Position numbers and translations under genes: made by a program
Shown: piece after piece, positions 1,165 to 63,316 of the stretch
Layout of the letters: every line of letters begins with the position of its first letter
Numbering within the stretch: the stretch's first letter is position 1
DNA from: Halichondria panicea
Taxonomy: Eukaryota; Porifera; Demospongiae; Suberitida; Halichondriidae
Direction: 5' to 3'
Length of the DNA stretch: 64,000 nt
Assembly: GCF_963675165.1 (NCBI RefSeq)
Contig: NC_087381.1
Span: 4,030,001 to 4,094,000 of the forward strand
Notes under the pieces: model-generated
What the model was told of the DNA's origin: nothing
What the model saw: only the letters and a program-made list of their open reading frames with translations
Databases searched by the model: none

Positions 1165-2147
1165 TCTCTCGAAGACACCTCCCCACCATGGTAGCGTTCA
1201 ACGTTGAACACCCATTCGCAGCTTAGTTCCGCTAAGTGTTCCTTGACAGTACCGTCCTGGAAAATAGCCTTCATATACTTGGCTGCTGCTTTGAACGTTT
1301 TTCCGTTGTCAGACAAGAACTTTCGGGGTAAACCTCTTCTGGATGCAAATCTCTTCAAACATCTTAAGAACGTTAACGTGGATTGGTTTGAGACGATGTC
1401 CAGATGTACAGCTCGAGTGACTAAGCACGTAAACAGACAGATCCATACTTTGTCGGGTGTAACCGAACCACGGATGCTCAAAGGGCCAGCAAAGTCGACA
1501 CCAGTGTACGAAAAGGCTGGATCTTCCTTCACTCTGAACGTGGGTAGAGGTGGTGGTGGTGTAGTCTTGAAGGGTGCTCCTTCGAATCTTCTGCACAGAA
1601 CACATCGGTGAATGATGCACTTCGTTAGACTTCTCCCTTTCGGTATCCAGAAACTTCTCCTGGTCTCAGTCAGTGTTTCCTTCACTCCGTTATGGCAAAC
1701 CCGCTCATGGGCTCTTCTCACAATCAGTTTAGTCAGAGGATGGGTTCTGGGTAGGAGTATTGGGTGCCTGGTAGCATACGGGATTTCTGCATTGGAGAGT
1801 CTTCCTCCACAACGCCATATTCCTTTCTCGTCTTTGAAGAGGTTTAGCTGTTTCTCCTGAGCCTTGAAGTTTTTCTCTTGGACCAACTGTCGCTGTGCGG
1901 TCGTTATCCACAATCCTTCCGCATGGGCTAGCTCTTCTGGGGTCAGGTTGGCTGAGATGTCAATGTAACTCCTCTTGAATACTCCAACTGCTCTCAGGAC
2001 TTGGGCCGTTACTCTCAACAGTCTTGACAATGTACCAAAACTCTCGCAGTCCAACAACTCACTTATGCTGCCCTCGGAGTCAGTCGCTACAAGGTTGAGC
2101 GATCTCAGGGCACTTGTCTTCAGTTCTGCAGAACATTCTTCTGGCAT
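1128..2147 (-). pseudogene. BEL/Pao integrase region
   Basis: This 339-codon segment contains the integrase zinc-binding domain: H-x-H-type residues in the RRAHERVCHNG region and the CVLC pair about 40 residues later. The first catalytic aspartates of the integrase core follow (YTGVDFAGPL and FLSDNGKTF). The last catalytic Glu lies beyond the frameshift, in the segment 400-1164. The upstream boundary is also a frameshift: the RNase H segment ends at 2080 in another frame, overlapping this one by 68 bases. An intact integrase would bind the LTR ends and catalyse insertion. Confidence 0.88.
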
Positions 2148-3153
2148 CAGATGCGTTTTCGCTTCTCCGCAAGGTGTGTTGTCTGCATCTAGCCAGCCAC
2201 TCAGGACCTCTTCGCCACAGTTGATTCACTGACAATTCCAATGGTGGAAGTCCTCTCGAAGGTAGGTCGGCAGGATTAGATATTCCTGGGCAGTGTCTCC
2301 AGTGATTGGGGTGGACGTTTTTCCGAATCTCATTAACCCTGTTTTGTACGAAGGGTTTCCACTCTTTGCTGATGCCACGAATCCAATAGAGTGCAACTTG
2401 TGAATCCGTGAAACACGAAATCTCTAATTGAGATAGGGTTGGCTGGAGACTGTCTGAGACTGCTACAATCAGTTTGGAAAGAAGGAAGGCTGAGAGGAGC
2501 TCCAAGCGTGGTATAGTCTGAGCTTGAAGTGGTGCAACTCTCGTCTTGGAAACGACAAAGTGGACGGTCGTGGTGGCCTCTGTCCTCAGCACCAAATAGA
2601 CCACTGCAGCGTAGGCTCTTGTCGATGCATCACAAAATCCATATAGAGTCATGGAGAGTGGAGTACCATTAACATTGTGGAAGTAGCTTCTGGGTATCGA
2701 GACCGGACCACCTTCCCTGAAATCGGCCACCAAGTCCTTCCATTCTTGCATCAATTCCTCTGGTAAGGTACTGTCCCACTCAACTTTGTTCTGGCATAGC
2801 TTCTGGAACAGGATCTTGAACTTGATAGTAACAGGTGCTAGAAATCCCAATGGGTCGTAAAACTTCCCAATCAGGCTAACAACGTTCCGTTTGGTTGGTC
2901 GCAGACTTGTCGCGAGTTGAGCCAACTCCGAGACGTCAAAAATGAGGCAATCGGCAGTGGGGTTCCAGAGTACTCCTAGAATCTTGTTCTCTTCGACTCC
3001 TTCAGTGGGTGAACATCCGAGCGTAGCCTTGGCATACGTCTCGTCCTTATTCTCTTCAGTGGGTGAACATCCGAGCGTAGCCTTGGCATACGTCTCGTCC
3101 AGGCAGCTTTCTTGGGGTTGGGATTTTGTTGGTTGGATCTTCTGCACAGTCAA
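2080..3153 (-). pseudogene. BEL/Pao RT connection, peptidase-A17-type and RNase H region
   Basis: This segment carries the LGVLWNPTADCLIF and RNVVSLIGKFYDPLGFLAPVTI motifs typical of the region downstream of BEL/Pao reverse transcriptase. The RNase H-like motifs GFCDASTRAYAAVVYL and CFTDSQVALYWI follow. Near its start an 18-residue stretch is repeated (DETYAKATLGCSPTEENK, then again), caused by a 54-bp in-frame tandem duplication. It is out of frame with the RT segment upstream; the shift lies around 3100-3150. Confidence 0.87.
3001..3100 (-). repeat. 54-bp in-frame tandem duplication in the BEL pol gene
   Basis: A 46-bp block at 3001-3046 recurs without visible change at 3055-3100, giving a period of 54 bp. 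Because 54 is divisible by three, the frame is kept and the protein gains 18 residues between the RT and RNase H regions. Confidence 0.9.
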
Positions 3154-3829
3154 TACGTTGCTGTAGCTCTCTTGAGTTGGTCAGGAATTTCCTGAGGTTG
3201 AATCCTCCGTGACGAAACATATCCTTAGCTTGGACGTATAGATCAAACGCTGCTTCTTCCGTTTCTGCACCTGTGACGATGTCGTCAACGTAAGTTGATT
3301 GGAGTAGGCGTCGAACGGTGCCCTCGTTGGATTCCAAGTAACCTTCCAAGTGAAACTTGATCGTGGCATTGAGTAGGAAGGGGCTTGAGGATACGCCGAA
3401 CACAACTCTGGCAAATCGGAACACTTGTAACTCTGGATTGTCCTTGGTGATATCGTCTATCCAAATAAACCGCAGGACATCACGGTCACTGTCGTTAACT
3501 GCTATCATCAGAAACGCCTTTTCGACATCAGCTGTCAAGGCAATCGGATATGATCGGAATCGCAGCAATAAGTCGAGAATCAGTTGGTTGAACTTCGGAC
3601 CTTTGTGCAAGCATTCATTCAGTGAGGGGCCGTCGGACTTGGCTGAAGCATCGTAAACAATGCGTAATTTCGTAGTAGTCTTGTCACTGCGCACGACGGC
3701 ATGGTGAGGCAGGTAGTGTACCCGTTCCGGGTCCTTGCCTCCGATTTGGACAGTCTCGATGACTCCCTTTTCCAGTTGCTCCTTGATAGTGCGGTCGTAC
3801 CGTTCCAATATTGCTGGATTCTGCCGGAG
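3056..3829 (-). pseudogene. BEL/Pao reverse transcriptase region
   Basis: The segment includes the RT palm motifs: TADVEKAFLMIAVN with the first catalytic Asp, and YVDDIVTG with the catalytic Asp pair. Between them lie FRFARVVFGVSSSPFLLNATI and the basic LRIVYDASAKSDGPSLNECL region usual for BEL/Pao. It is in the same frame as the gag-protease ORF and separated from it only by a single in-frame TGA at 3830-3832. The two ORFs may therefore have been one polyprotein, or TGA may be read through. The 3' end is a frameshift into the RNase H segment. Confidence 0.9.
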
Positions 3830-5947
3830 TCAGCATAGCATTCCTCGCATTCGTTTGAGGCTTAGTTGGTAGTTGTCCGGTAGAGGATCGTGGAACTCCT
3901 TCCATGGGAGCGACACCTTGTACCGTCCCTCGTGGAAGGTGATGTCGCTAGCAAATTCATCGTACAGGGTCTTTTCTTCCTTGTTTATGCCTAACGACTT
4001 GAGCTCCCAGAATGATCGTAACTGCTCGTCCAGCGCCGTGGACTCAAGTTCCTGGGTTTCGGCTCTGAGTACATGTGTGGTCGTCAGATTCATCGAGCAT
4101 TGGGCTTGGTCTTTTGCTGGTGTAGGGCCAGACAGTACCCATCCTAATTTGGTGTGAATGGCGGTAGGTCCACCTTCACTCCTACATACACTTCCCGTTA
4201 CTAGGTCCCAGTAATAATCGGAGCCGATAAGGACATCAACCTCTAGACTGGACCTCCCATCGGAATAATCGGCAAAATCTAGTCCCATAAATTGTTGGGT
4301 ATTCTCAAAACAAGTAGTAATGTGCTGACCAACTAAGGGTCCACATATGGTTGGGACAACATACAGTGACAACGACATGGGTGGATATCCTTTCAAGCAC
4401 ATTCCCACATTCACAATCGTACATACCTTCGCTTGTTCTCGGTTGGATCCAAAGGTAGCAATGGAAAGAAGTTGTTCTCCACTAGGCTCCAATGCCAGCA
4501 GATTCTTGGCTCGTTCAGTGATGTAGGACTTCTGGCTGCCGCTGTCGAATAAGAGTCGAACTTCAATCGAGGTCTCCGATTTCGCAGGGTTGTGCACGAT
4601 ACTACGAGCGGTCTGTAATAGGATGGCATTTCCTTTGTCAGAGCATAAAGCGTTGTTGGCCAAAGTAGGTGTGTACGGGGTTGCATCGGGACTCAGCGTT
4701 GTTTCAGGTTGTACTGTGTGGGGTCGAGGATTCAGCTCAGCGACTTCTCGTTCACAAATTGACGTGTGATGCCGTCCCTTGCATTTTAGGCACTTGCTTG
4801 TGGATCGACAATTGCGGCCCATGTGGCCCTTGCGTAAGCAGTTGAAGCAACGACCACTATCTCTCAAAGTTTGTTTGCGAGCGGTGAGGCTGATTACAGT
4901 CTTGCAGTCGGTCGACGGGTGGGATTGCTGGCAGTAGCTACAACTTACTCCAGCTCTTGGTTCCTGCGCCCTTGACAATAGGGCAGAGGAAGTTTGACGG
5001 CCTCGATCTTGATTTCGGCGTGGTGGTGTATGGAAGGAGTTGGAGTTGGAGTTGGAAGCTCTCTCTCTAGCGACCAGTTCTTCTTCGAAGGGTTTAAGTA
5101 AGCTATCCATGTTCAAATCTGTGGATGCGACCTTACGGCTGACAATGAGACGTAGATCGGTAGGTAGCTTGGTTAGCAGCACAGAGGAGAGCATAGCCCC
5201 ATACGATTCTGATTCCACTCCTAGGGACTTCAAACTTCTCATGTGTGATTCGGTGCTGTCGTAGAGTCGTCGCAGATCCTTCAGGTTCTGGTCTGATGTC
5301 ACAGCCTCCACCGTCAACAGTGTCTCCATATGCTTCGAGATTATCAGTAGTTTATTGCCAAACCTTTTCTGCAGGATCTCAATCGCTTCTTGATAGTTAA
5401 CGGACGACAGGGTGAGTCCGGAAATGGCATCATACGCAGTTCGTTCCACCAGGGACCTCAGATAATTGAACTTGTCCGTGTCTGTTAGCCCATCGTTATT
5501 GTGAATAGCGGACTCATATGAGTCCCAAAAGGTTGGCCATTTCATCAGGTCACCATTAAAGTGTGGAAGTGTTAGTTTGGGCAGTTGAACTCTCGCCCCT
5601 CGTTCAGGACCTCGAGTGGCCGTAGGTGGGACAATCCCTGGTGCTGTAGCAGTAGGTTCAGCTCTTTTGATTCGTGTCAAGGCTTCATATATTCGCTCCC
5701 GATAGTCATCGGCTTGTTGGATTTCATCATCAAGGGTTTCCTCTGGGGTAAGTTCAATAATCTCAGTATCTAATCCCTTTAGTGTTTCCAACTTTTGTTC
5801 GAGGGTCTGCTGAAGTAGAGACAGTCGATCTGGGTTTGGGTGTGTTTCTCCAAGAGCAACAGCCAGTTGACCCAGAGTGCGCGTGGCCGACGCCTTGTGG
5901 CCAGCGCGTATTCTTCTCTTCCTTGTTGAGACTTCTGTGTCGGTCAT
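3830..5947 (-). CDS. BEL/Pao gag and aspartic protease ORF
   Basis: The frame is open from inside the LTR (6130), but the first Met in the internal region is at 5947 (MTDTEVSTRKRR), which I take as the start, giving about 705 codons. In order it contains a DUF1759-type gag domain (LTLPHFNGDLMKWPTFWDSY), a CCHC zinc knuckle (CFNCLRKGHMGRNC) and a second Cys/His cluster (CLKCKGRHHTSIC). A retroviral-type aspartic protease follows, with the LLFDSGSQKSYI active-site motif (DUF1758-type), and then the DVLIGSDYYW strand. It ends at an in-frame TGA (3830-3832) in sequence that still looks coding. Gag packages the RNA, and the protease cuts the polyprotein. Confidence 0.9.
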   Translation of the reverse strand: MTDTEVSTRKRRIRAGHKASATRTLGQLAVALGETHPNPDRLSLLQQTLEQKLETLKGLDTEIIELTPEETLDDEIQQADDYRERIYEALTRIKRAEPTATAPGIVPPTATRGPERGARVQLPKLTLPHFNGDLMKWPTFWDSYESAIHNNDGLTDTDKFNYLRSLVERTAYDAISGLTLSSVNYQEAIEILQKRFGNKLLIISKHMETLLTVEAVTSDQNLKDLRRLYDSTESHMRSLKSLGVESESYGAMLSSVLLTKLPTDLRLIVSRKVASTDLNMDSLLKPFEEELVARERASNSNSNSFHTPPRRNQDRGRQTSSALLSRAQEPRAGVSCSYCQQSHPSTDCKTVISLTARKQTLRDSGRCFNCLRKGHMGRNCRSTSKCLKCKGRHHTSICEREVAELNPRPHTVQPETTLSPDATPYTPTLANNALCSDKGNAILLQTARSIVHNPAKSETSIEVRLLFDSGSQKSYITERAKNLLALEPSGEQLLSIATFGSNREQAKVCTIVNVGMCLKGYPPMSLSLYVVPTICGPLVGQHITTCFENTQQFMGLDFADYSDGRSSLEVDVLIGSDYYWDLVTGSVCRSEGGPTAIHTKLGWVLSGPTPAKDQAQCSMNLTTTHVLRAETQELESTALDEQLRSFWELKSLGINKEEKTLYDEFASDITFHEGRYKVSLPWKEFHDPLPDNYQLSLKRMRGMLC

Positions 5948-6092
5948 TGCACACTTATGTGCGCAGACAGCAGAGTAATCCGTTGAGTAGTCTTCGCAAC
6001 TTGTTCTTGCACACTTTCGTGGGCACCAATTAGGACAGTAGAGTGATCCGTTGAGTAGTCTTCGCAAACTTGCTTTTAGACTTCCGATTCCA

Positions 6093-6110
6093 ATCCGGTT
6101 CGAAGGACCA
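6093..6110 (-). other. Primer-binding-site-like sequence next to the 5' LTR
   Basis: Directly inside the LTR the minus strand starts TGGTCCTTCGAACCGGAT. The TGG complements a tRNA CCA end and the position is right for a primer-binding site. The complementary strand contains a T-loop-like GGTTCGA only a few bases before CCA, which does not match the spacing of an ordinary tRNA 3' end. I cannot name the tRNA. Confidence 0.6.
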
Positions 6111-6327
6111 TGTAAATAATCAGAATTCACTCTTACTTAACCGTTCAAACTGTTATTATTTTCGTTATACTACAGGATTCAATTAGATTGACTCTTGTTC
6201 ATCTTTCATTCATTTCTCACAACATGTGTCTGATCATGTGATTACAATACTGATGACATAATGTGTAGTGTGTGTAGTGACACAATAAGGTGACACAATA
6301 ACTAGTAAGATAACATAATTTCCAACA
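6111..6327 (-). repeat. 5' LTR of the BEL/Pao element (217 bp)
   Basis: This is a direct repeat of 137-331. It differs by one substitution (A/G in the run before TTATTATTTTCG) and by a 22-bp expansion of the GTGTAGTGACACAATAA segment around 6264-6300. The target duplication CCTGC follows at 6328-6332. Confidence 0.93.
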
Positions 6328-6440
6328 CCTGCATAAATTTGTTTTGCAAGAACATGTTCATTCTTTTTTCTGCTGTTTCTAGTCCTTCAATTTGCTGGCT
6401 AAATTCTTCCCTTTTTTTCCATCGTTTACACAAGTTGTTT

Positions 6441-7112
6441 TCAAAAAGAATCACGCTTTTGTGCTGCCACTATTGCCTTCTTTTTATTTTGGTATTGTTG
6501 TCGTCTTCTTTGCTTTGACTTTATAGACCGCTGTCCTCTACAAGGTGACACCTACAGGGCACGAAAACAGTAACATTGTAACAATTGTAAATACACTTAC
6601 TTGATCTTTTGGCCTTGAACTTTTGGCCTTGAATGCTTTGTGGAGGAGTCTGATCAGTGAATGTATGATCTGTAATATTCAACTTAGTGCCTGCTAAGGA
6701 TTCAGGGAGAGGAGAGGGGAGAGGGCAACAATGAAGGGGCCATTAAATACATACTCTGCATAAAATAATAATTATTAATTATGATAGAATGTAGGCCTAC
6801 GTATGTCTGCTCACCATCATTTCTGCGTCTTGATGGTCATATCCCTTGCTCATCAAAATATTGAAGCAGTGATCAGATGATCCTGGGTCTTTAGATGGGC
6901 TGCTCATGATCTGAAGTAGCAAAATACAAATCTTGATGCGCTTTAATTCATATCTGTTCACATGCGACCTCTGACCCCAGATTGAGATTTGATGGCAACC
7001 AATCAGTATTTAGTGGAATCCCAGTTCAGTACAGTGTCTAATATCTAGATACTGATATAAGTCGCATATCATATTATTGAGCCCTCTATTGAAAATAGTT
7101 AGCTAGCTAGCT
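6441..7112. other. Mostly non-coding stretch
   Basis: Some coding-like codons for the interrupted coiled-coil gene may continue on the minus strand to about 6490. Beyond that I see only AT-rich sequence with short local duplications, for example TTTTGGCCTTGAAC twice at 6607-6635. No ORF or RNA gene is supported. Confidence 0.4.
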
Positions 7113-48776: not shown

Positions 48777-49266
48777 TTGAAGCTCAATGTTTTCTTTTTC
48801 CAAAAAACTAATTAGCTTAATTCAATTTGCTAATTAGTCCCATAAAAATGGTGATGACGTCATGCCACTTTCAGAAAGAGAAGTGCAAATACGGCGTTGA
48901 AGATGCCAAGATCCCAAGATCAAGCACAAGGCTAGATGAACATCTCATAGCAAGGTATTAGTATCCTTGATGGGAAGAGTAGGAGTTATTGTATACGCAA
49001 AATAGCCTACCTGGCTGCCAGAGCTAAAGAAAGTTTTGGACATTTTTACTTCCCATCAAGGAAACATAATCATAACAACATACTCTATCGCTACCGTTGC
49101 ATCTATAATAGTTCTAGCAGCTAGCTAAGCAAATACATTGACCTTACGACGTCACATGCAATGAATAACATTAATAAACATTATGAATCTCATTAACACT
49201 ACACGATCTACATGATCTACATAAAATGTTGGCAATGAATAAAACTAATCTTATTAGTGCCGGCCT
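48777..49266. repeat. Dispersed repeat L, copy 2 (target of the helicase transposon)
   Basis: Matches 30556-31100 over its length, with the same start (GAAGCTCAATGTTTTC) and the GTGCCGGCCTTA end. The 9-bp duplication of the helicase transposon lies in this end. The continuation TAACTGCGCAGAG is found beyond 55096. Confidence 0.75.
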
Positions 49267-49330
49267 TAGCCTCGAGACCAGGCCCCTTGAGAAGAGGGCC
49301 TGGTACCTATTGCATGTGTGATAGTGCACA
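49267..49330 (+). repeat. Left terminal inverted repeat with internal hairpin
   Basis: It begins TAGCCTCGAGACCAGGCC. ACCAGGCC (49277-49284) and GGCCTGGT (49297-49304) form an 8-bp stem over a 12-base loop. It ends in GTGATAGTGCACA. Confidence 0.92.
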
Positions 49331-49453
49331 TGCGCAAACTGAGTCTCCCAGAATATGGGGATTCGTTTACCTTAGTAAACTATCGTAAACTTATACCGTA
49401 AACTAGTTTTTACTGGGAAATCTATTCCGTGATATTTACTAGATCTCTATGCA

Positions 49454-51179
49454 ATGGCGTCAACCGAGTTTTGTCAAGCTGTGGCTTATGCCCTAAATTG
49501 TGTTGGTCAAGAAGGCCTCACACTGAAGTCGAAGCAAGAAGAGGCTCTCATCCACCTCTACGATGGTCGGGATGTGTTTGCTTGGTTCCCTACAGGCTAT
49601 GGCAAGTCTCTCTGTTTCCAACTTCTGCCCTTCATGTTTGATTTCAAACTAAAGTGGACAGGCTGTCCAAGAGTTGAGAGAAGTGTTGTGCTGGTGCTGT
49701 CACCACTAGTTTCTTTGATGGTAGACCAGGTGTCAGGCCTGCAGAAGAGGGGTGTCTCTGCTGCTATACTCTCTGGCAACAAAGGTAAGCAGCTAGAACA
49801 GCCATAATACTCAGACTTCTTTTGATTGACAGAGTACATATAGAAGGTAATGGCTCTAGGATCTAGAAAGATAGCTAGAAACTGATGTGAACACCGTTTA
49901 ATATAGCATGTACATGTCCAGTCTGTATAATTATGTAATTGCTTGCGTTGCTTGCGTTGTTCATAGATGTCGAGAAGGATCTCTTGGCTAGTGAGAGTGA
50001 CGTTTCCTCGGGTCGGTTCTCTCTCCTCTATAGTGCTCCCGAGGCCATCCTAGACAAAGAAGCATGGAAGCAGCTCTTAGTCCAACGTCCTCTTTGTAAC
50101 ACTGTAGTAGCAGTCGCTGTTGACGAAGCACACTGTGTGTACAAGTGGTAAGAGTCATTTAAATACACATGTACATATACAGTGTTACTGTCAGTAGCCT
50201 TTAAGTTTTAATACACGCACACGTCAGAATAATATACACATAATTACATGTATTGTATATACCATGCATATACATACCTGTACAATTTACGTTTAACGGG
50301 TACCATACATGTTCCTCTCAGTTGTGTACAATGATTTGCACAACTTACAGGAGTAAAGACTTTCGTCCTGCCTTTGATCGTATCTGTGACCTGCGAGCAT
50401 TTGTGCCTCCCGATACACCATTTCTGGCTGCGACTGCCACTGTGACCAAGAGGATGAGGGACAATATTGTTCAGAAGCTTGGCATGGCAGGCTGCTATAT
50501 GGCATCTGAGTCTCCCAACAAGCCCAACATCTGTTATGAGGTTGTACGTAAGACATCTATCGAGGAGGACTTTGCATTCGTTGTGGCAGACTTGTGGGAG
50601 AAGAACATCAAGGCTCGACGCATAGTTGTCTACTGCCAGTCGTTAAACATGTGTGCGAGTTTGTACGAGCACTTTAAGTACACTCTCAAGGATGCGGGCT
50701 ACTACCCTCCAGGAGCTGAACAGATCAGTGACAACAGAATGTTCGGGATGTTTCACTCCTGTACTGACGAACACAACAAAGCAGTTATCATGGAGAGTCT
50801 TGGGAAGCCTGATGGTGTTGTCAGAGTTCTGTTTGCGACGATGGCTATTGGTATGGGGGTGGACTTCAAGAACTTGGACTTCATCATCCACTATGGTGCC
50901 CCTAGGTCATTGGAAGACTACTTTCAAGAGAGCGGCCGAGCTGGTAGAGATAATCAGCAGTCGTTGGCTCGAGTGTACTGGAGCCCAGTTGAAGCTCCTG
51001 TATATACCGATCTGACTATCTCAAGGAATTTGGAGTTACGAGCTGTGAGAGAGTATCTTGAGAACACGAAGCGTAGGAGATTCGTGCTGCTGAAGTATTT
51101 TGATCCAGCTGTTGCCTGGAACATGGAGTCTCGTGACAAGAGGTGGTGCTGCGACAATTGTCGATCCGTTGCTAAGTGA
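49454..51179 (+). CDS. RecQ-family DNA helicase encoded by the transposon
   Basis: Three exons (49454-49784, 49967-50147, 50351-51179) with GT-AG introns join to 447 codons including the stop, without any frame break. Helicase motifs are in order: I (FPTGYGKS, residues 45-52), II (DEAH, 163-166, followed by C), III (ATATVTK), V (ATMAIGMGVDFKNLDFIIHYG) and VI (ESGRAGRDNQ). The C-terminus has the RecQ zinc-binding signature (RRRFVLLKYFD, then WCCDNC at 436-441). No winged-helix (RQC) or HRDC domain follows. The protein should unwind DNA 3' to 5' with ATP; in this context it probably acts on transposon ends or replication intermediates. It runs toward the DUF6589 gene, ending 63 bp from its stop. 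I chose the first ATG of exon 1. Confidence 0.93.
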
Positions 51180-51241
51180 TGAAAATGATGGGGGTAAGTA
51201 ATGTACAGGGTATTAGAATTAGCTACATGTAGTAGTCAGAA

Positions 51242-54200
51242 TCAGGCCTCAATACCATCATATTCAAAAATATCTGAGGCTTGTATATCATCAAGTCCGT
51301 ACGTGGCACTATACACGTCCGCATCCTTGGTGTCTGAGTCAAAAATATCTGAGGCTGGTATATCATCAAGTATATCATCAAGTCCGTACGTGGCACCATA
51401 CACGTCCTCATCCTCGGTGTCTGAGTCAATTCTCATAGCGGTTTCGCTCCTTGTGTATTCTTTAGCCTTCCTCTTGATCCATGTGCTCATTTTTTCTCTG
51501 TTTAATTGATGCAGGGGGTCTGGGGAGAATTTAGGGAACATTCTGTGAGACCGGTTCACAATAACGCTGAGGACCTCAGCCTTCTGAAGCACAGCTACAA
51601 CTGTCTTGACGTCCTTCTCATCTGACCTCGTGCTGTGAGCTGTTGCTTCACGGTGGATGTTAGTCTGCTTGTCAAAGGCCATGGAGATTCGATGAAGAGA
51701 CGATACGGATCGTGCTGCCCAAGTGCTGGCAGTCTTCGTAAAGTTGGCACCCATGTTCGAGATGATGTTCTTGTAAAGCTTGTTTATGTGCTCATTGTGG
51801 AGATCACATGGGATGTTCCGTCCTAGGCCGCCATGAGTGTTGATGAAGCGGCCCCAGGTCAGCTGATGAGAGAGGTATGGCTGGAGAGTGGCAAGTTGAA
51901 ATTGAAGCCTAAGTGCCTCTAGTGCATATTTTGTCTTTTTCTCAGCATGAAAGTGGAGCATTAAAATCTTCCACAGCCTAATAACACGCTCACCGTCTCC
52001 TTCTTTCCAGGCATCCACAAACAGCAGTACTAAGGAGGCGAAATGACATAGCACTCGAGCATACCCGTGCACTTTATCTCCACTGTCTATCACTGTCTAT
52101 CACAGACTCTCCAAGCAGCGCCTCAGGGATCACTGTGAACTCCTTCACCACTGTCTGGGCCACACTACTCAGCAGAGATTGGTTTACCTCTTTGTCTTTG
52201 ATCTCATCATCGGGTCCTATGGTGTATGTTAATGTAAATGTTATTTTATCGGTATGCTGTGTAAGCAATAATTATGTTACCTTCAATGTCAAATTCCTTA
52301 CAGCCTGCTAGGAAGGCAGCTTGACATGTGTGCATGTCATTCTTCGGTTTCTTCGCCTTGGAGCATCCAATGCGAGCAAAAAGACTGCTGAGAGTGCCGT
52401 AATCTTCTTGGCTGTCCTTGTGCAGCTTCTGCCAGATGAGCTACATGTAAAAAGGTAACATATAATATGCTTGCGTGCTTCATGTACATACACTCCTGTT
52501 AGTATATACACTGGTATATAATACTGTACACACGAAGTCAATTAAGTTACTGTAATTATATGTATTATGGTGGGCTTTTAATAATAATTTATCACACGTA
52601 CTTTAAACTTACAATCATCATAAAGTTCATCACACAATGCCAGTCCTCAATGCATGGCTCAAGTTGTTCAATCCTCCCTCCAGGAGTATTGGAGCCACTG
52701 CACATGACGTTTGGCACCCTGCTCTCGCTCTGCTCTCGCTCACATGTGAGGTGATCACCCCCAGACAGGGCCGTGTGCTTGTGGTCTGATCCCAGGTACG
52801 ACACCATTGTTCTCATTATTTCTATCATTTCACTACTCACATTCTCATTGTTGTGCAGTACATCCAATACAACCACCTCTGACCTTACTGTCATCTCTTC
52901 ACTGTATTGATGTGGGATGTGCTTAGTGACCAACCTAATCGCACAGTATTCGACTGACCAGTACTTCTAAGTCTCCTTGGATAACAATGATGTCTTCTTT
53001 GGATGGCAGGAAGCACTCGACAGTCTCTGTGCAAAGCATAGAACGAGACAAATCAGCGATAGGAGCAGGAGGTGAGACACGGGCCTTGACAGCAAATATA
53101 CTAAACATATGCATGAGCTTCCCATGATGGTCACTTGCAATGTCTCGTACATTGACTTGCTTGTCGACATTGTCCCCCACGAACTTCACAAATGCCCCGT
53201 CCTTTAACCACTTATCAAGCACTTTAGTGTGACCTTACTGATCATATTCACACGCTTCAGTATTGCGTTGTAACTGAGGGTCACGTTGATGTGGTTGAGC
53301 CTAGTCCAAGCCTAGAAATTAACAATAATAATAATATTTTTTTATCAGGCTGCATTGAGGGGGGTATTTTTCTCACCCCCCCGGGCCCCCTAGGATACAT
53401 TAGTATAGGCATTTGTACTGCTTACAATGTATAGTTCTAATGACTTGTGCACCAGAATTGATCAAAGGCCTAATTTTTACAGGGGAGCATGCCCTCGGAC
53501 CTCCCTATTATAAATCACACACAATCACACACAATACACAATCACACACAATTACACACAGACCTTCTTCTGGATGTGAGTAGAAAAGAGGGCACTCGAC
53601 AGATTGAACCCCACACATCGTTTTGTTGCGTTCCTTCAAGAGGATAGCCACCGCTGTGCTTAGTCCTGGGAACTGTCGCTCTCCCTTCTTCAGCTTGTTC
53701 CTCTTGGACGAGTGGGTGATAGCACAATCAATAATGTGGTGGAGAGTTGGTGCTTTGGTCTCAAGCTCAGTGACTGTTTGTCTCCAGGAAAAGCTTTCTG
53801 CTTGCTCAATGGTCATGGACCGGAACAGTGACACAGGTTGTGAACTCTTGCTGCACAACGAGGCACACTCATCATCTACTATTCTCGAGATACGAGACAC
53901 AGCTTCGTCCCTGAGCTGAGGGTATGAGAAAACAGCCCTACAAATTGACTGCAGGTTCCCCCCTGTCAGTGCCTTTGCAATCTTCTCAAGCTCTGGACGA
54001 ATGGATACTGTACATATCGCCCTCTTGCTTGGTGAGTACACCGATATCTGTAATAGCACACATTTATATAATTATTTTAGCTGTACTTACTACATGTACG
54101 TGCGTGTACCTTGACTGACTTCATGTCAGTAGCAGTGGTATTGGTACTCTGGGGAGTGCACTGCATTCCAGCTATAAACAAAAAATTCTCATTGTGATAC

Positions 54201-54910
54201 AGGACATTTTTTACCTCTACGTATAAGTGAATGAATATGAGTCCCACCCTTGAATCCCAGCCTTAATTTACATGACCCAAAGGGATTACCGAGTATACTA
54301 AAAATTATAGCACTAAACACTCTGCAGATATACCATTGGGTTGCTGAGTATTGGCAGTCTGGCGAGAACTCTCAACACGAGTAGCTGGAGGAACGTTGCT
54401 CATGTCTCTCAAAGACGCACCACTCCGATCAGTCACTATGATGATCGAAATCACTATGTTTTATCTTACTCTCGTCCTGGACACGGAAACAGAGCCTCCT
54501 ACCAGACGCTCCAACAGTCTGCTGCTTTGCTGTTGGTCTGACTTGTTGTGTGTGTGGAGATACTCCAACCCCACTAGTGTCCTTGGATCTCTTTCTTGAA
54601 GCGTCTTGAAGCGTGAGTGCTCTTGGGGCTGCCGGTGACGCCTGTGAGAGGCCTGGGTAGAGATGTCCTATTCTTCTCATAGCTAGCCTTGGCTAGAACT
54701 CTAAAAGACTCAGCTGATACAAACTTCCTGTTACAAGGCCTGCAAATGTGCTGTGAAAGACCATCATTTGCAATGACTGGCACATCTATGACCCTGCTGA
54801 TCTGCAAGACCTGAGTCTGAGGCTATACATTCTCTGGAGAATAATGATATGCTTTGTTTAGTCAAAGAAGTGCTGCAAATCCTGCACAGTGCGGTTTCTC
54901 TGGTAGCCAT
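51242..54910 (-). pseudogene. DUF6589-domain protein, probable transposase of the helicase element, frame-broken
   Basis: Exons run from ATG 54910. A ZAD-like N-terminal finger comes first (LCRICSTS ... HICRPCNRKF), then a linker. A helical region at 54059 to about 53565 follows (ELEKIAKALTGGNLQSICRA ... NKLKKGERQFPGL). The DUF6589 region has FVKFVGDNVDKQVNVRDIAS, ALSGGDHLTCERE, LEPCIEDWHCVMNF, KLHKDSQEDYGTL, GYARVLCHFASLVLLFVDAW, LSHQLTWGRFINTHGGLGRN and DLHNEHINKLYK. The acidic C-terminus contains a duplicated DDIxASDIFxxD segment. Frame changes near 54595-54614 and 52081-52100 lie exactly at perfect 10-bp duplications, and another is near 54810. Without them the gene would be largely intact. 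Its role as transposase is inferred from being the only other gene in the element. Confidence 0.82.
53330..53560. other. Intron-like stretch with poly-T, C-run and ACACAATC repeats
   Basis: Lies between two exons of the DUF6589 gene. It contains T-rich, CCCCCCC and repeated CACACAATCACACAAT sequence. No coding function is seen. Confidence 0.5.
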
Positions 54911-55024
54911 AGCTGGGAAGTCTATTTAACCACGATTTCGTAGGAACCATGCGGTATAACGTATTCTTATTTTGTGTATTTTCCGTTTTATATCTTGTTA
55001 AATAAGATGCACTACGGCTGAAAG

Positions 55025-55087
55025 TGTGCACTATCACCCATGCAATAGGTACCAGGCCGTATTTTAATCGGCCTGGTCTCGAGGCTA
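55025..55087 (-). repeat. Right terminal inverted repeat with internal hairpin
   Basis: The complement of the left terminus. On the minus strand it begins TAGCCTCGAGACCAGGCC, then a different 11-base loop, then GGCCTGGTACCTATTGCATG and GTGATAGTGCACA. The two arms of the hairpin are kept although the loop sequence differs from the left end. Confidence 0.92.
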
Positions 55088-55096
55088 TGCCGGCCT

Positions 55097-63029: not shown

Positions 63030-63316
63030 GAAGTTGTGCATGCAAATGATACACTCTCTCTCATTTGCATGGTTGTACATGCAAATGATATTCTCTTATT
63101 TGCATGGTGAAGGTGTACATGCGAATGATTCTCTCATTTGCATGGTGAAGTTGTACATGCAAATGATACTCTCTCATTTGCATGGTGAAGGTATACATGC
63201 AAATGATACTCTCTCATTTGCATGGTGAAGTTGTACATGCAAACGATACTCTCTATTTGCATGGTGTACATGTGATCTTTTATTTGCATGGTGAAGATGG
63301 TCATGCAAATGCAAAT
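63030..63316. repeat. Minisatellite built of octamer motifs (ATGCAAAT / ATTTGCAT)
   Basis: Units of about 40-47 bp alternate ATTTGCATGGTGAAG and GTACATGCAAATGATACTCT. About 13 exact ATGCAAAT or ATTTGCAT octamers fall in under 300 bp, in alternating orientation, so each unit is itself an inverted repeat. The octamer is the classic POU-factor binding site. The array ends about 150 bp before a possible gene start. Confidence 0.85.

Follow-up and report, generated by a model that had tools for sequence, protein, structure and literature searches.

Does a helicase gene that lies beside a candidate transposase gene in a sponge genome travel with it as one mobile element, and if so, to which class of transposon does the pair belong? 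The question is raised by a 64,000-nucleotide stretch of the Halichondria panicea genome (contig NC_087381.1, positions 4,030,001 to 4,094,000 of the forward strand; hereafter the window), which holds a 5,821-bp element at window positions 49267-55087 with hairpin-bearing inverted ends, a RecQ-type helicase gene and a convergent gene of the DUF6589 family. Our data show that the two genes move together between shared ends flanked by 9-bp target duplications. They point to an AcademH-type DNA transposon with two genes, a reading to which we give a probability of about 0.86. New here are a terminal hairpin that covaries between families and a set of stand-alone hairpins made of two element tips.

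The element and its two genes

The element is flanked by a perfect 9-bp duplication, TGCCGGCCT, and both ends read TAGCCTCGAGACCAGGCC... inward from positions 49267 and 55087. The inverted ends, about 64 bp long, match imperfectly: their loops differ, and a 39-bp core is 92% complementary. A DNA fold places a hairpin in each end (Table 1). The element is more than a chance arrangement because its end and duplication length recur genome-wide.

Three plus-strand exons with GT/AG borders join into an open frame of 446 amino acids that matches the Pfam domains DEAD and Helicase_C, and the top relatives of the protein in PDB are WRN, RECQ1 and bacterial RecQ (E 7e-46 to 2e-43). This DEAH helicase core with RecQ-type sequence relatives places the protein in the RecQ family. 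A sequence-only reading of the window had reported the perfect duplication, 64-bp inverted ends and an intact spliced RecQ-type gene. The duplication and the gene stand as described, and so do the presence, hairpins and genome-wide recurrence of the ends, with the mismatches just given.

The DUF6589 gene lies on the minus strand in several pieces, convergent to the helicase gene, and two of the pieces exceed the Pfam cut-off. The ZAD-like finger that had been read in it stays under its own cut-off (24.1 against 28 bits in the window copy, 21.1 bits in the relative L036). Relative to sister copies, the window gene differs by a 10-bp tandem duplication and a 5-bp deletion (L030) and by a different 10-bp tandem duplication (L029), and its frames are split in keeping with these indels. 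The sister copies are damaged too: L030 is without 8 nt at the likely start, and the L029 matches contain stop codons. Because small indels split its frames, the DUF6589 gene of the window is probably non-functional, and the window copy probably makes a helicase but no intact transposase. The convergent DUF6589 gene of the sequence-only reading is thus upheld by Pfam, its finger falls short and its frame is broken, and the transposon as a whole, which had been called self-contained, is probably not so in this copy.

The DUF6589 core is predicted to adopt an RNase H-like fold with two conserved Asp at DDE positions (scores are modest), which goes some way towards the proposed role as transposase; a profile of the core gave no match to solved structures at E <= 1. 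The best relative of the element protein bears the source label Em0007g1424a, which we take to be the freshwater sponge Ephydatia muelleri.

Related copies and classification

We searched the same assembly (131 Mb in 39 contigs) with the ends and with both proteins. The left end gave 427 candidate places and the right end 661; 40 in each search were scored, and all 40 matched. There were 116 helicase and 68 DUF6589 matches, of which 72 and 52, respectively, entered a pairing count once same-place second pieces and weak matches had been excluded. A DUF6589 match lies within 3 kb of 36 of the 72 helicase places, and 35 of these 36 pairs are convergent, like the pair in the window.

Both genes lie between inverted ends in five further elements, which belong to three families and have exact 9-bp duplications. 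In family B, the copies L049, L050 and L051 share 99.9% identity across roughly 5,350 bp and have perfect 69-bp ends, an identity by which the family is judged to be young; exact duplications flank L049, L050 and a copy on contig C17. The other two families are represented by L036 (5,643 bp) and L052 (5,601 bp, ends TAGATGGGCG). The right end of a family-B copy at C1:10.68-Mb was not found at the expected place, and a search for a pair of ends at L058 found none.

Two inverted family-B copies on contig C10, L051 (C10:1594000-1599500) and L059/L060 (C10:1620600-1626200), lie about 22 kb apart and have no exact duplication at their own ends. One flank of each copy is the reverse complement of one of the other's (ATAGAACCA / TGGTTCTAT), a swap such as inversion by recombination between the two copies would leave. 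Undoing the inversion restores the duplication of one copy only; the other remains unmatched.

One-gene sites number 52, with 36 helicase-only and 16 DUF6589-only. Four of these were read, with partner remains judged by eye from open frames and no profile. Both DUF6589-only sites read hold a decayed convergent helicase, and both helicase-only sites read resemble a single derivative with an internal deletion, in which a ZAD-like stretch remains next to the helicase. Co-occurrence of the two genes within shared terminal inverted repeats, which the sequence-only reading had anticipated, is borne out by near-identical and divergent copies alike. Separation of the genes, which it had named as the observation that would speak against a joint element, comes with decayed or deleted partner remains at all four sites read. 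Helicase matches with one internal TAA (L067, L068 and like places) appear by eye to be a helicase-only derivative with a ZAD-like remnant; it appears to have multiplied without the DUF6589 exons and presumably moved in trans.

The duplication length is regular among relatives found by end sequence. Of 19 such loci, 16 are two-ended, and 14 of the 16 (two of which share flanks) have an exact 9-bp duplication, one has a single mismatch and one has none. This unfiltered count took ends 300-1000 bp apart; a separate pair listing kept those with no more than one mismatch over the 9 bp. Six coding elements, the window copy included, have exact 9-bp duplications. The duplicated sequences tend to start with G and end with C (positions 1 and 9). 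When the flanks of L019 are joined, they match L030 gaplessly across the junction, where the 9 bp stand once, and for L008 there is an empty paralogue that matches apart from a few differences. Copies with 9-bp duplications and empty sites, the latter paralogous and for these two short relatives, are thus found as predicted. At L020:1501-2337, two elements of different families, 730 bp and 98 bp long, lie head to tail. The 9 bp GATGCATGC occur three times there, as though the first element's duplication had served as the precise target of the second.

We file the element as AcademH because its helicase and duplication length match the printed description. A passage in PMC10045372 gives AcademH duplications of 9 or 10 bp and AcademX duplications of 3 or 4 bp, tied to an encoded helicase or nuclease; Academ is listed among the DDD/E superfamilies in a part of PMC9587614, and the title of Kojima 2020 (Mob DNA 11:15) names animals and fungi as AcademH hosts. 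In the sponge, the duplication is exact at 9 bp in the loci and coding elements counted above, and the helicase lies inside the element in several families with shared ends. DUF6589 would then be the Academ transposase. The novelty that the sequence-only reading had implied falls away, as helicase-bearing AcademH elements with duplications of this length are already described in that passage of PMC10045372.

A separate, undescribed superfamily that is AcademH-like only in its helicase and 9-bp duplications seems improbable to us. The place of DUF6589 in Academ is putative, and a literature search on the word DUF6589 gave no paper, but the fit of the helicase and the duplication to the printed description and the hosts in the cited title speak against such a superfamily. 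Still less probable is another known helicase-bearing superfamily, either KolobokH, which joins RecQ to a transposase, or a relative of Helitrons. Kolobok elements duplicate TTAA at the target, and Helitrons, which have a Rep/HUH protein with a PIF1-type helicase and 3' hairpins, are not known to make a target duplication. The sponge elements instead have 9-bp duplications of mixed sequence and a helicase that is RecQ-like by its solved relatives, and a Pfam scan of 15 pieces and proteins, which make up part of the coding capacity, found no Rep domain. In favour of a Kolobok affinity, RecQ is present in some Kolobok lineages and in one of them lies on the complementary strand (part of PMC9587614); for a Helitron affinity speak the helicase and the hairpins that Helitrons have. 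The least probable reading, RecQ as a host gene or passenger there by chance, could draw on the 36 of 72 helicase places that have no DUF6589 match within 3 kb, but near-identical copies on different contigs at unrelated places, and divergent families as well, hold the same gene pair inside the same ends and duplications, and a host-gene origin found no support at the four one-gene sites read.

Table 1. Features of the element in the window (Asp, aspartate; bits, Pfam scores).
Feature	Position	Strand	Basis
Target duplication, left copy TGCCGGCCT	49258..49266		flank comparison
Left terminal inverted repeat (TAGCCTCGAGACCAGG...)	49267..49330	+	inverted-end match; recurs genome-wide
Left terminal hairpin	49277..49304	+	12 pairs, -11.9 kcal/mol for 50 nt; arms covary between families
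RecQ-type helicase exon 1, Walker A GYGKS	49454..49784	+	joined open frame; Pfam
RecQ-type helicase exon 2, DEAH box	49967..50147	+	joined open frame
RecQ-type helicase exon 3, Helicase_C and Cys cluster, including stop	50351..51179	+	joined frame; Pfam
DUF6589 last coding piece, EH motif (third acidic candidate)	51245..52096	-	Pfam 77.5 bits, cut-off 27
DUF6589 piece, GGD motif (second Asp)	52592..52966	-	Pfam 31.5 bits
DUF6589 piece, GDN motif (first Asp)	52938..53234	-	alone no Pfam match; motif conserved
DUF6589 upstream coding piece	53511..54071	-	no Pfam match; compared with L036 and P0001
First exon region, ZAD-like Cys pairs	54577..54925	-	split over two frames in the window copy
Right terminal inverted repeat	55025..55087	-	inverted-end match; recurs genome-wide
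Right terminal hairpin, loop unlike the left one	55051..55077	-	9 pairs
Target duplication, right copy TGCCGGCCT	55088..55096		flank comparison

Terminal and stand-alone hairpins

The terminal hairpin is conserved and covaries between families. Eight ends from different families keep the pairing despite differing arm sequences, and only 10 of 40,320 reassignments of the arms pair as well as the real ones; the eight ends and the arm limits were chosen by hand, with the L052 ends omitted. In the divergent L052 family, read in the joined piece L056+L052+L057 (C3:5810500-5820000, element at 1345-6945 of the piece), about 60 first nucleotides self-pair from beside the tip, and each end is a nearly complete hairpin.

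Hairpins made of two element tips also stand alone. Five were seen in the loci read, three with an exact duplication, one with one mismatch and one with two. An exact pattern for this hairpin occurs at 264 places genome-wide, against none for a reversed control. We read 50 of the 264 places, 48 of them on contig C1, and found an exact 9-bp duplication at 26, one mismatch at 10 and more mismatches at 14; 36 of the 50 thus have at most one mismatch. Exact flanking repeats of 5-8 or 10-13 bp are absent from all 50. The hairpins are 32-60 bp long and comprise 40 distinct sequences, with two different tips in 26. Independent places are fewer than 50 because several groups share flanks. A scan of viral contigs for the hairpin gave no match. 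A literature search, which did not include the AcademH paper itself, returned nothing on hairpin-only AcademH derivatives and is no proof that they are unprinted.

A sequence-blind scan for palindromes with flanking repeats covered 308 kb, nine overlapping loci being excluded. With 9-bp repeats it returned four places: two two-tip hairpins, a 98-bp relative and an unrelated palindrome in the window (63175-63205). With 7-bp repeats it returned seven; five are places of this same type read in a shifted register, and two are others. The unrelated palindrome, 31 bp long (CATTTGCATG...CATGCAAATG), recurs at L037:6127-6157 and has repeats on both sides, ATACTCTCT in the window and ATACTCT in L037.

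At L012 the hairpin lies inside a dispersed repeat, 17 paralogues of which are empty sites whose flanks overlap by exactly 9 bases (counted by eye from coordinates, with the pair C2:3346645 / 3346780, which overlaps by one base, excluded). In another paralogue of this site, C9:1960939-1961671, the flank breaks off exactly where the hairpin is inserted and continues about 500 bp on, 26 query bases short. A longer element may occupy this position in the C9 paralogue and, if so, would favour an origin of hairpins by collapse of longer elements.

For most of the stand-alone hairpins we slightly favour such a collapse. Because the inner arm at one end forms a short direct repeat with the outer arm at the opposite end, a deletion between the two arms would leave two tips; alternatively, joining of both ends apex to apex would remove everything else. 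Either product would be a short palindrome of two tips inside the original 9-bp duplication, and collapse would account for the varied junctions as well as for the two-tip class. Our first idea from the five initial cases, snap-back synthesis starting at one end, was dropped as the main model because 26 of the 50 hairpins carry two different tips, for which deletion or apex joining is simpler.

Less likely, though with a substantial claim of its own, is that the stand-alone hairpins form an independently mobile class moved by the element transposase. A 36-nt loop-to-loop core occurs in identical form at 34 places, two of which were read (L083, L101) and differ in their duplications. Of 119 candidate matches to the L054 hairpin, 40 were scored, and 39 of these are other places (counted by eye); the match nearly always spans the full 47 bp, and the flanks of L054 are not carried along. 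GATTCC stands at both tips in 13 of the 50 hairpins, and among 55 exact-start ends no long element pairs GATTCC with a GATTAAAATAC loop. Against this, the two different tips in 26 of 50 resemble those of longer elements, and 40 distinct sequences with varied junctions are what repeated independent collapse would produce; two L054-like places also have a second match within 200 bp, and some may be parts of longer elements. A more specific proposal, which we consider unlikely, makes the terminal hairpin the working unit of transposition, the 32-60 bp two-tip hairpin itself being mobile through the DUF6589/RecQ machinery. Such a hairpin would be too short for the usual looping of double-stranded DNA from one paired end to the other and would therefore move as an extruded cruciform or single-strand hairpin, made available by the RecQ helicase. 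If so, these hairpins, in their hundreds and with their 9-bp duplications, would rank with the smallest transposons known and be nuclear equivalents of orphan mitochondrial hairpin elements.

Proposed mechanism and known systems

In the mechanism we propose, the DUF6589 protein would act as a DDE transposase with an RNase H-like core and, at its N terminus, a ZAD-like finger. It would bring the two hairpin-bearing ends together, excise the element and link the element's 3' ends to the target with a 9-bp stagger, which would yield the 9-bp duplications. The convergent RecQ helicase would most likely open DNA at the ends, by unwinding or extruding the terminal hairpins, or else aid repair synthesis after cutting; the hairpin ends are its putative substrate. 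The geometry of the hairpin offers a reason for the hundreds of hairpin-only derivatives, and their 264 places tie stand-alone hairpin repeats to a transposase family. Because the family appears young and AcademH-like, with three 99.9% identical copies, and its animal host has a compact genome, it becomes possible to test what a RecQ helicase does for the transposon that encodes it.

Among known systems, AcademH shares with the sponge element the encoded helicase, the 9- or 10-bp duplication and animal hosts; Academ is listed as a DDD/E superfamily in the source cited above, and the predicted DUF6589 core may be of that type. Terminal hairpins and hairpin-only derivatives are features described here for the sponge element, and AcademH is represented in this comparison by passages that cite it. 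AcademX, whose nuclease is an XPG nuclease, would belong to the same superfamily if DUF6589 is the Academ transposase. It differs in its 3-4-bp duplications and in having a nuclease in place of the helicase (passage in PMC10045372). KolobokH and Kolobok-1_CCri combine a DDD/E transposase with RecQ, in one case on the complementary strand (part of PMC9587614). Their transposase is another one, as is their TTAA duplication. Yeast mitochondrial GC clusters, flanked by short direct repeats and including the 42-nt GC42 (passages in PMC4478555 and PMC2800124), and sponge mitochondrial hairpin elements are likewise stand-alone short palindromes that multiply. They are mitochondrial, have no known mover and are flanked by the repeats AG or ACT, whereas the hairpins described here are nuclear, lie within 9-bp duplications and share their tips with a coding transposon.
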